NCBI GenBank assembly: GCA_017625695.1
Contig: JAGAKI010000021.1
Span: forward strand, 1 to 51,500
DNA length: 51,500 bases
From: Clostridia bacterium
Lineage (GTDB): Bacteria; Bacillota; Clostridia; UMGS1840
Direction of reading: 5' to 3'
Shown here one piece after another: positions 46,447 to 51,500 of the stretch (position 1 is its first letter; each line of letters begins with the position of its first letter). The position numbers were made by a program, and so were the translations under genes. Below the pieces are notes generated by a model. It ran no database searches. It was not told the DNA's origin and saw nothing but the letters and a program-made list of their open reading frames with translations.

Positions 46447-46795
46447 AAGTTACAGAAAAACTGCTTAAATTGTGCTTTTCAGCGAATGCCGCGTACTTTT
46501 CAAGATCGGTACGCTCTGACAGTTTCTGCCGAATTCCTTACACAACAAGTTGCAGAAAAATTGCTTAGATTGTGCTTTTCAGCGAATGCCGCGTACTTTC
46601 AAAGATCGGTACGCTTTGATAGTTTCTGCCGAATTCCTTACACAACAAGTTGCAGAAAAACTGCTTAGATTGTGCATTTCTGCGAATACCGCGTACTTTC
46701 AAAGATCGGTACGCTTTGATAGTTTCTGCCGAATTCCTTACACAACAAGTTGCAGAAAAATTGCTTAGATTGTGCTTTTCAGCGAATGCCGCGTA
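46447..46795. repeat. 100-bp-period tandem repeat between ruvA and ruvB
   Basis: Three full units begin at 46447, 46547 and 46647 and a half unit at 46747 (each with AAGTTrCAGAAAAAyTGCTT). The period is exactly 100 bases, so frame is not kept and the repeat is not a coding repeat. Each unit contains inverted pairs: GCGTAC with GTACGC across 12 bases, CAAAG with CTTTG, and TTTCTGC with GCAGAAA across the unit junction. The final half unit ends in a compact GCGTAC-CTGGT-GTACGC hairpin. Confidence 0.92.
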
Positions 46796-46846
46796 CCTGG
46801 TGTACGCAAGTGAGCGTAAAAGTGCAAGATAAGTGATTTTTCAAAA

Positions 46847-49485: not shown

Positions 49486-50862
49486 ATGAAGCTTTGGGGC
49501 GGAAGATTCAATAAGGAAACAGATAAAGCGGTGGACGATTTCAACAGTTCCATTTCCTTTGACTGCAAAATGTACAAAGAAGATATCGAAGGCAGCATTG
49601 CCCATGTTACCATGTTGGGAAAACAAGGCATTATCCCAGCGGAAAATGCAGAAACCATCAAGGCAGAGCTTGGTAACATCTTAAAAGATATCGAAGATGA
49701 TAAAATTGAATTTTCATTAGAAGCGGAAGATATTCATATGAATATTGAATCCATTTTAATTGAACGTTTAGAAGGCATCGGTAAGCAGTTGCATACCGGC
49801 AGAAGCCGTAATGACCAAGTAGCTTTGGATGTGAAAATGTATACCCGAAATGCTATTAACGATATTAAGGGCGAAGTGAAGAATTTACTTTCCACCATTG
49901 CAAGTTTAGCAGAGCAGGAAAAACTGACCGTTATGCCTGGCTACACCCACTTGCAGAAAGCGCAACCCATTACTTTGGGGCACCATTTGATGGCGTATTT
50001 TCAAATGTTCAAACGTGATTATGAACGTCTGTGTGACTGCTTGGGCAGAATGTCCCTCTGTCCGCTTGGAAGCGGTGCATTGGCAACCACCACCTATCCG
50101 TTAGACCGTCATCTGACTGCAAAACTGCTTGGTTTTGAAGGGCCAACCGAAAACAGCTTGGATGGTGTTTCTGACCGTGACCACGTGGCAGAATTCATTT
50201 TTGATTTATCTATGATTATGATGCATCTGTCCCGTTTCTCGGAAGAAATTATTTTATGGTGCAGTGATGAATTTTCCTTCATTCGATTAGATGATGCGTA
50301 TTCCACCGGCTCCAGCATTATGCCGCAGAAGAAAAATCCTGATATTGCAGAGTTAACCCGTGGAAAAACCGGTCGTGTGTACGGCTCTTTAATCACCATT
50401 TTAACCATTTTAAAAGGAATCCCCTTAGCCTATAACAAGGATATGCAGGAAGATAAAGAAACGCTGTTTGACGCTTACGAAACGGTAAAAATGTGCTTAC
50501 CCATTTTCGCAAAAATGATTGAAACTATGACTGTAAACACCGAAAAAATGAGAAACGGTGCCAAAGGCGGTTTCACCAATGCTACCGATGCGGCAGACTA
50601 TTTAGTAAAAAAAGGAATGCCTTTTAGAGATGCTCACAGAGTCATTGGTGAAATGGTTTCCTATTCCATCGGCGAAAAGATTTCATTAGAAGAAATCCCT
50701 CTTTCCAAATTAAAAGAATTCTCCGAATTAATTGAAGAAGACTACTATCAGGCAATTGCATTGGAAACCTGCGTCAACGAACGTAATGTATACGGCGGTC
50801 CCTCCCCCGATGCTTTGGGCACTGCTATCGACAATGCAAAAAGATTTTTAGAAAGCTTATAA
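49486..50862 (+). CDS. argH: argininosuccinate lyase
   Basis: 458 residues. It starts with KLWGGRFNKETDKAVDDFN and has the fumarase/aspartase signature GSSIMPQKKNPD (about 275-286), with the catalytic Ser in the flexible loop, and the TGRSRNDQ block. It splits argininosuccinate into arginine and fumarate. Ribosome site AGGAGAG before the ATG. Second gene of the argGH operon. Confidence 0.97.
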   Translation: MKLWGGRFNKETDKAVDDFNSSISFDCKMYKEDIEGSIAHVTMLGKQGIIPAENAETIKAELGNILKDIEDDKIEFSLEAEDIHMNIESILIERLEGIGKQLHTGRSRNDQVALDVKMYTRNAINDIKGEVKNLLSTIASLAEQEKLTVMPGYTHLQKAQPITLGHHLMAYFQMFKRDYERLCDCLGRMSLCPLGSGALATTTYPLDRHLTAKLLGFEGPTENSLDGVSDRDHVAEFIFDLSMIMMHLSRFSEEIILWCSDEFSFIRLDDAYSTGSSIMPQKKNPDIAELTRGKTGRVYGSLITILTILKGIPLAYNKDMQEDKETLFDAYETVKMCLPIFAKMIETMTVNTEKMRNGAKGGFTNATDAADYLVKKGMPFRDAHRVIGEMVSYSIGEKISLEEIPLSKLKEFSELIEEDYYQAIALETCVNERNVYGGPSPDALGTAIDNAKRFLESL

Positions 50863-50882
50863 AACAACTATTTCAGGGATTG

Positions 50883-51013
50883 AAAAAAGGATACAGAATG
50901 GGTAAACCGAACCAAAACACAGTTTTGGGTTATCCGAAGGCGTACCGAGTGTACGCCGAGTGATGAGGTTTCCCCATAGTAAAAATCCTGTTTTTACGGT
51001 CTGTGCCTTTTTT
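50883..51013 (+). ncRNA. candidate structured RNA between argH and tRNA-Arg
   Basis: About 130 bases fold into a closed four-helix plan by eye. The outer stem AAAAAAGGaTACAGA (50883-50897) pairs with TCTGTGCCTTTTTT (51000-51013), including one G-U and one bulge. An inner stem GGGTAAACC (50900-50908) pairs with GGTTTCCCC (50967-50975), one mismatch. Inside it are two hairpins: AACCAAAAC/GTTTTGGGTT (one bulged G) and GGCGTAC-CGAGT-GTACGCC. A fourth hairpin GTAAAAA/TTTTTAC (50979-50997) precedes the closing strand. The T-run makes the 3' end terminator-like. I do not recognise it as a known family. It starts about 20 bases after the argH stop, so it may instead be an elaborate 3' UTR. Confidence 0.55.
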
Positions 51014-51028
51014 ACATCCCTGCGGTAC

Positions 51029-51103
51029 GCCCCTGTAGTTAAGTGGATATAACGAGTCCCTCCTAAGGACTAGTCATCGGTTCGATTCCGGTCAGGGGTG
51101 CCA
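51029..51103 (+). tRNA. tRNA-Arg (CCT anticodon)
   Basis: 75 bases including an encoded CCA. Acceptor stem GCCCCTG pairs with CAGGGGT (one G-U). D arm GTTA/TAAC. Anticodon stem AGTCC/GGACT with loop CTCCTAA, anticodon CCT at 51062-51064. T arm ATCGG-TTCGATT-CCGGT. Reads AGG codons. Confidence 0.96.
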
Positions 51104-51104
51104 G

Positions 51105-51142
51105 AAAAAAGACATTTTACGACAAGAAAAATGTCTTTTTTT
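51105..51142 (+). terminator. terminator after tRNA-Arg
   Basis: AAAAAAGACATTTT (51105-51118) pairs with AAAATGTCTTTTTT (51128-51141) around a short loop; starts two bases after the tRNA CCA. Confidence 0.88.
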
Positions 51143-51143
51143 C

Positions 51144-51309
51144 AGCTAAATTCGCTAACGCGAGCTAAATGTGCTATGCACGCTAAATTACTTCGTAGCT
51201 AAATTGACCTTCGGTCAGCTTTGGCGAATTTAATTTAGCTGTTTTGAAAAAACAATTTAGCTATTGCAAAGCAATAATTTCGATTTGCACGAAAGTGCAA
51301 AATTTAGCT
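51144..51309. repeat. micro-hairpin array with a conserved AGCTAAATT spacer that inverts midway
   Basis: Seven tiny hairpins with different stems alternate with a constant spacer. Left part, spacer (A)GCTAAAT(T): TCGC-TAAC-GCGA, GTGC-TAT-GCAC, TAC-TTC-GTA, GACC-TTC-GGTC. Right part, spacer reversed as AATTTAGCT (51232, 51254, variant AATTTCGAT at 51276, 51301): GTTTT-GAA-AAAAC, ATTGC-AAA-GCAAT, TTGCAC-GAAA-GTGCAA. The first block AGCTAAATTCGC has a reverse complement with a 3-base insertion at 51225-51240. No open frame or T-tract explains it. Confidence 0.9.
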
Positions 51310-51374
51310 AAAATCTGTTGCATCTATTATGAACGCGAAAGCCAGAAAACTATGTAAGGTAATGATTTGTCAAA

Positions 51375-51500
51375 CTAAGTGCAACATTTTTTGAGTTCAA
51401 GCTCAAATAAATCTGCTGGTTTTTGATAATTTAAAATTTTTTTGGGCCTGGCGTTAATTAACGCCAGGTTCTTTTTTAGTGTTGTAGGACTAACCCTTGA
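51375..51500 (-). CDS. IS30-family-like transposase, C-terminal end (cut by window edge)
   Basis: From the window edge the minus strand reads 41 codons to a TAG at 51377-51375. The motif NARPKKILNYQKPADLFE resembles the NNRPRKxLxYxTPxE end common to IS30-family transposases, where the last helix carries this block. The stop lies next to TGTTGCACTTAGTTTGACAA, which looks like an IS30-type terminal inverted repeat (about 51366-51385), so the IS end is probably near 51360. The catalytic DDE residues lie outside the window. Confidence 0.7.
   Translation of the reverse strand, partial: SRVSPTTLKKNLALINARPKKILNYQKPADLFELELKKCCT
51447..51476 (+). terminator. terminator-like palindrome inside the transposase gene
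   Basis: A perfect 22-base palindrome (arm CCTGGCGTTAA, 51447-51468) is followed on the plus strand by TTCTTTTTT. It lies in the transposase coding frame (residues NLALINARP) but would terminate transcription entering from the tRNA side, opposite to the transposase. Confidence 0.6.

Follow-up and report, generated by a model that had tools for sequence, protein, structure and literature searches.

A probable mobile element built on inverted arrays of short hairpins, and its PF05635 partner protein, in Clostridia

Results

A hairpin array follows a tRNA-Arg gene

The window analysed here is the whole 51,500-nucleotide stretch at positions 1 to 51,500 (forward strand) of contig JAGAKI010000021.1, from a Clostridia bacterium of the UMGS1840 lineage (assembly GCA_017625695.1; 1.97 Mb in 84 contigs; genome G000 below). 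Near the right end of the window, a tRNA-Arg (CCT) gene identified with ARAGORN (51029-51103) is followed, directly after its CCA, by a unit of about 237 bp that contains an array of short hairpins (51144-51309). The unit carries no gene; all features given below are on the + strand. In the array, a constant linker, AGCTAAATT, occurs first in forward and then in reversed orientation, with seven hairpins in between. This layout, read directly in the sequence, is as described in a first-pass annotation of the window, except that stem lengths, given there as 3-6 bp, were found to be 2-7 bp.

The unit is bounded on the left by a direct repeat, GCCAGAAAA, at the tRNA 3' end (51100-51108), which resembles a target duplication. 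A hairpin with intrinsic terminator (GAAAAAAGACATTTT..AAAAATGTCTTTTTTTC; 51104-51143), probably borne by the element as judged from the fold and from near-identical hairpins elsewhere, forms the B end. In the B-arm (51144-51216), forward linkers at 51144, 51163 (AGCTAAATg), 51182 (GCTAAATT) and 51197 are accompanied by hairpins hp1 (CGC-taac-GCG, 51153-51162), hp2 (GTGC-tat-GCAC, 51171-51181), hp3 (AC-ttc-GT, 51190-51196) and hp4 (GACC-ttc-GGTC, 51206-51216). The core, AGCT-TTGGCGAATTT-AATTTAGCT (51217-51240), corresponds to invariant alignment columns and is kept in all aligned two-armed arrays. Reversed linkers lie at 51232, 51254 and 51301, and the A-arm (51241-51309) holds hairpins hpA (GTTTT-gaa-AAAAC, 51241-51253), hpB (ATTGC-aaa-GCAAT, 51263-51275) and hpC (TTTGCAC-gaaa-GTGCAAA, 51284-51301). 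A right-end tail, AAAATCTGTTGCATCTATTATGAACGCGAAA (51310-51340), is common to other tRNA-type copies. It precedes a second GCCAGAAAA (51341-51349), beyond which the sequence is native by comparison with GTGCCAGAACAAG in genome G004. Folding of the window array surpasses that of all 200 dinucleotide shuffles, whether computed as RNA (z = -5.3) or as DNA (z = -6.7).

The array is one of a dispersed family

A linker search of the source genome and its relatives, as the first-pass annotation had proposed, found 81 exact occurrences of AGCTAAATT in G000, where the reversed control word has 7. The AGCTAAATT occurrences fall mostly in about 14 arrays of a single plan: forward arm, core, reversed arm. 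Of 60 genomes sampled among relatives, 9 have the pattern, in several families of the class, and it also occurs in many metagenome-assembled genomes (MAGs) of rumen and gut Clostridia. When viral contigs were searched with the linker pattern, nearly all hits were single matches, taken as chance. Among Rfam 15 covariance models run over positions 50000-51500, tRNA alone reached its gathering score; the array thus matches no Rfam family, in line with the annotation's remark that it knew of no named family. A literature search found no paper naming the linker in this role or describing IVP genes (see below) with hairpin arrays; a "23S rRNA IVP" protein is listed in a figure on CRISPR associations, to which the text adds no detail (PMC10910872). 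Long one-direction arrays with up to 13 linkers and near-identical hairpins were also seen (L116, 3589-3918, and several places in L090); their sequences look as if units could be added by duplication.

Stem conservation was assessed in an alignment of 31 arrays (A1), in which 25 stem pairs were scored, with shuffles and slid partners as controls. Pairing is kept in 98% of stem cells and falls to 31-44% with slid partners. For covariation, a score of 0.542 compares with 0.207 for shuffled and 0.04-0.12 for slid controls, and 15 of the stem pairs show changes on both sides. This signal arises partly from alternative whole hairpins occupying one slot; compensatory changes are also found inside one hairpin type (TGAAC/GTTCA, TGAGC/GCTCA, TGAGT/ACTCA). 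The earlier statement that stems vary yet stay paired therefore holds across copies, and the array is neither a single occurrence in the genome nor one whose stems are lost in relatives. A long form of hpB, ATCGAnnGAAnnGAGAT (for example L308:4122-4297), has tandem G-A mismatches between flanking pairs, possibly a protein-binding motif.

Slot order, slot identity and the core AGCTAAATTAAATTCGC are conserved between genomes, with linkers constant and stems varying by slot and copy. Because order and identity are so conserved, self-extension by template switching, one of the origins put forward in the annotation, need not be invoked for the window copy. A CRISPR array can be rejected, since the linkers are separated by hairpins that keep their slots from genome to genome and not by unique spacers; the annotation's view that the block is no CRISPR, coding repeat or terminator is upheld. 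Genome counts, shuffles and covariation rule out chance or AT-richness. Many copies do adjoin terminators, as would be expected of ordinary terminator-associated palindromes or of AT-rich repeats grown by slippage, but that explanation is refuted by the conserved slot order and core, the compensatory stem changes, the linkage to PF05635 and the array-less sites (see below).

Placement and probable insertion sites

The arrays that were read sit beside tRNA terminators, beside promoters and in intergenic regions. Placement was counted in 59 distinct arrays. Those lying between co-directional neighbours are sense in 27 cases and antisense in 2 (p = 8e-7), and tRNAs are found 12 times on the B side and never on the A side. 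In 37 of 57 arrays, the B end adjoins a perfect hairpin whose stem has at least 6 bp.

Four sites were compared with related genomes of the genus, in which the intact array is missing; a decayed copy was found once. At the window's tRNA-Arg, genus mates G003, G004 and G001 keep the tRNA and continue with other sequence, lacking both terminator and array; G003, whose argH is 90% identical, has no core motif anywhere in its genome. At C61:57538, where G003 has TTGTCATTTTTTTATTGTTGTGTTAGAATAAACAG, G000 has an array, a four-helix gene and a DUF4288 gene; the insertion adjoins TAGAAT, and TAGAAT occurs again at its right end. Other insertions likewise lie beside TAGAAT or TATAAT, with the motif recurring at the right end. 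At C61:41198, G003 is empty. At the tRNA-Pro site, no array is present in G003, which has a terminator of its own. Since the relatives compared are other species, these comparisons support insertion and do not show movement. Many copies have GCCAGAAAA, CCA or TANAAT repeated at both ends, and tandem copies abut, the right end of one being joined to the B hairpin of the next (L302).

In most tRNA-type copies the tRNA CCA recurs about 30 nt past the array in the A-side flank, often followed by a native terminator, and this argues that the tRNA-side terminator belongs to the inserted unit. A near-identical terminator hairpin precedes arrays at tRNA-Pro, tRNA-Met and tRNA-Lys (L032, L035, L039) and in L106. 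The terminator that the annotation assigned to the tRNA thus most probably came with the inserted unit.

Longer copies carry a PF05635 gene

In longer copies, a gene for a PF05635 protein (23S rRNA-intervening sequence protein; E of about 1e-28) begins 10-40 bp past the array (L041, L300, L303, L120, L405, L408, L410, L414 and others). The protein also matches TIGR02436, has a solved homologue (2rld) and is a four-helix bundle. The gene is sometimes followed by DUF4288, and in L308 a NUDIX gene stands in its place, behind a truncated start. After the gene or genes in L041, L303 and L308 comes the tail GGCATCTAAATCGTTC.., the same tail that lies directly 3' of the array in short copies. About 13 of the 14 arrays in G000 have no PF05635 gene.

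PF05635 was found in 32 of 34 array-bearing genomes, a set mostly picked via array hits and including a likely duplicate (G272 has the same hits as G007). A fairer comparison comes from a single draw of 60 genomes, where PF05635 is present in 8 of 9 array-positive and 17 of 51 array-negative members (p = 0.003).

Linkers change with the protein

Other PF05635 clades show the same array plan with different linkers: ATGATGTT (L412), AATGATG (L416), AATGAAG (L419, L420), GTGAAG (L317, L318), ATGAAATA (L421), ATGAATTG (L423), TGAAATC (L425), TGATATA (L443) and GTGATATT (L430, in G003). The two GTGAAG arrays lie, with two four-helix genes, on a 4.6-kb contig of G000 (C15), which could be a contaminant of the MAG. 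An unbiased array detector gave a score of at least 3 in 19 of 64 PF05635 upstream regions versus none of 1,920 shuffles. The 11 linker labels need 10 changes, the minimum, on a tree of 63 proteins that was built from few columns and has 36 rows lacking a hairpin array, and none of 200 shuffles reached that figure; the AGCTAAATT label needs a single change (support 70/95). On this sequence evidence, the case that linker type follows the PF05635 tree without conflict appears strong but is not final.

Excess inverted repeats were found at 47 of 64 PF05635 genes, the repeats being either all upstream of the gene or on both sides of it; this count includes the hairpin-type loci. Four-helix genes on plasmids of Treponema, Euhalothece and Nostoc (L447, L448, L450) lie between inverted short tandem repeats, and such loci may account for some of the short tandem repeats in cyanobacteria.

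The array immediately precedes the gene, reads in the same direction and lies beside a promoter or tRNA. This arrangement and the co-divergence of linker and protein would also suit a leader RNA with a regulatory or structural role for the four-helix gene, acting in autoregulation or as a toxin-antitoxin-like RNA-protein module; gene-less copies would then be decoys or decayed remnants, spread by ordinary horizontal transfer and recombination. We consider this unlikely, given the great majority of G000 copies that lack the gene, the occurrence of the same ends at unrelated loci where relatives have no array, and the tandem copies joined end to end.

Other features of the window

Beyond the array, positions 51350-51500 form the contig end, the part that the first-pass annotation took for an IS30-like end. 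At 50870-50985 lies another dispersed repeat (GGGTAAACCGAACCAAAACACAGTTTTGGGTTATCCGAAGG...), some 90-115 bp long and present in many partial copies throughout the genus. A 100-bp unit repeated in tandem (3.5 copies, with 94% matches) occupies 46447-46796, between ruvB-like and ruvA-like genes.

Discussion

The array family is a previously unnamed and probably mobile DNA of gut and rumen Clostridia. We judge it likely that the window array is a gene-less copy of such an element, resembling a miniature inverted-repeat transposable element (MITE), which brought a terminator hairpin of its own along when it inserted after the tRNA CCA. The first-pass annotation had named a recombination or replication site, a protein-binding RNA and a self-extending repeat as candidates; of these and other readings, the data best fit a mobile element, with a leader that is probably bound by a protein. 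What decided the matter lay beyond the reach of that annotation: the dispersed copies, the array-less relatives, the PF05635 partner and the co-divergence of linker and protein.

In the reading direction, the element consists of a hairpin (a terminator in the window copy), the forward arm of linkers and hairpins, the core, the reversed arm, optional genes and the right tail. The optional genes are that for the four-helix PF05635 protein and, in some copies, cargo such as DUF4288; in one copy NUDIX replaces PF05635. The array would serve as the leader: folded as RNA or single-stranded DNA (ssDNA), it would form a branched tree through pairing of its forward linkers with the reversed ones. This folded array would be bound by the cognate four-helix protein, which probably recognises it as RNA or ssDNA. 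The complex could then mediate or assist insertion beside hairpins or melted DNA at sites where transcription starts or stops, the targets proposed being promoter -10 boxes and tRNA 3' ends. Gene-less copies might be moved in trans.

Several observations weigh against a mobile element. The array-less relatives are related species and not strains of one species, so that at some sites an array may have been lost long ago or the DNA rearranged in another way; at C61:41198, a decayed array remains in G001 (L390), and the DNA of G004 is different (L391). The repeats at the ends are short, from CCA to 9 bp or TANAAT, and some copies (L032, L118) have them in imperfect form; terminal inverted repeats between the B-end hairpin and the tail are not evident by eye, no systematic search having been made. 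The linker labels used on the protein tree were assigned by eye, and one array-bearing genome, G015, yielded no detectable PF05635 gene. Finally, the elements that were read contain no transposase, integrase or reverse transcriptase, which leaves their autonomy unproven; reverse transcriptase (PF00078) is absent from 19 of 28 carriers, Y1 transposase (PF01797) from 11 of 28, and both from G006, suggesting that neither is required. The different DNA of G004 at L391 (C1:2200-2900) ends in a tail-like GGCATCGGAAGCGTTCACTGATTTT.

The same absences bear on the choice of mover. Short hairpins, many dispersed copies and a hairpin beside the insertion end recall ssDNA elements of the REP/REPIN (repetitive extragenic palindrome) or IS200/IS605 kind, moved by a Y1 transposase of the RAYT type with the four-helix gene as passenger, and Y1 matches do occur in 17 of the 28 carriers. 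We regard this as very unlikely: no Y1 gene was seen in the elements read, none was found in G006 (98% complete), G266, G270, G279 and others, and the linkers track the four-helix tree. A retroelement moved in trans by a reverse transcriptase, of group II intron or diversity-generating retroelement (DGR) type, is highly improbable. It would draw on the resemblance of PF05635 to Avd, in which case the four-helix protein would be an Avd-like cofactor (PMC10053308), on the sense orientation, suggestive of an RNA step, and on the reverse transcriptase beside a weak PF05635 match on contig C7 of G000; the carriers lacking PF00078, however, include the array-rich G007 (93% complete) as well as G006 and G017 (100%). 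A DGR was rejected as the identity of the arrays on these grounds, and Y1 transposase or reverse transcriptase as required mover is weakened by the carriers without them. Weak PF05635 matches near a reverse transcriptase (G000, C7:4283-4615 and C7:5154-5765; G004, C19:19023 and 19894) probably mark, from their sequence, a DGR with an Avd gene.

We rate the array element as a variant of the selfish element of the type found as intervening sequences (IVSs) in 23S rRNA genes. Such IVSs, that of Coxiella for example (PMC4990558), are likewise associated with an S23p/IVP four-helix protein (PF05635/TIGR02436), present in the longer copies only in the case of arrays; they are thought to be selfish or mobile, have complementary ends, are located at an RNA hairpin and are cut out of the transcript by RNase III. 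They lie within helices 9, 25 or 45 of 23S rRNA, whereas arrays occupy promoters, tRNA 3' ends and intergenic regions, have hairpins with fixed linkers and are mostly gene-less. Two PF05635 loci (L331, L343) were seen by eye to lie in 23S rRNA sequence. PF05635/S23 proteins were recognised decades ago in broken 23S rRNA genes and their structures have been solved, but to our knowledge no function has been assigned to them.

In REPs the palindromic stem sequence is conserved, the reverse of arrays with their varying stems and constant linkers. Like arrays, REPs and REPINs are short, dispersed palindromes; many of their copies lack a gene, and the protein gene linked to them is rarer than they are, but their partner is the Y1 (RAYT) transposase and not a four-helix bundle protein (PMC3116915). 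As with MITEs, gene-less copies share ends with gene-bearing ones (L041, L303, L308), and many have flanking direct repeats, imperfect in some; the difference is that no transposase was found and that no terminal inverted repeats are evident to the eye. In type III toxin-antitoxin systems (ToxIN), an RNA repeat array lies upstream of one protein gene, as in the array elements; PF05635, however, is not a ToxN-type RNase, and arrays also occur alone, in many copies and with mobile-element ends. The Avd protein of DGRs is a homologous, nucleic acid-related four-helix bundle (PMC10053308), but no reverse transcriptase, template repeat or variable repeat accompanies the array elements, and most carriers lack any reverse transcriptase.

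More tentatively, and short of calling it probable, it can be proposed that these elements belong to a general class in which a four-helix (IVP/S23/Avd-like) protein acts as the factor for mobility or recognition, with inverted short-repeat arrays as its cognate RNA or ssDNA ends. If so, the repeats would be separated by hairpins in Clostridia and would flank the gene without hairpins in other phyla; IVSs of 23S rRNA would form a subclass, and such elements would have left as footprints some of the short tandem repeats seen in cyanobacteria, spirochaetes and other groups. Hairpin arrays with a linker word that changes in step with the protein offer a concrete candidate ligand for PF05635/S23 proteins, and cognate versus non-cognate linkers constitute a natural swap experiment. 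The association with arrays also offers a reason for the scattered spread of PF05635 genes. For the rumen and gut Clostridia, in which the array family is an abundant repeat, the targeting of promoters and tRNA 3' ends means that it could rewire expression and termination.
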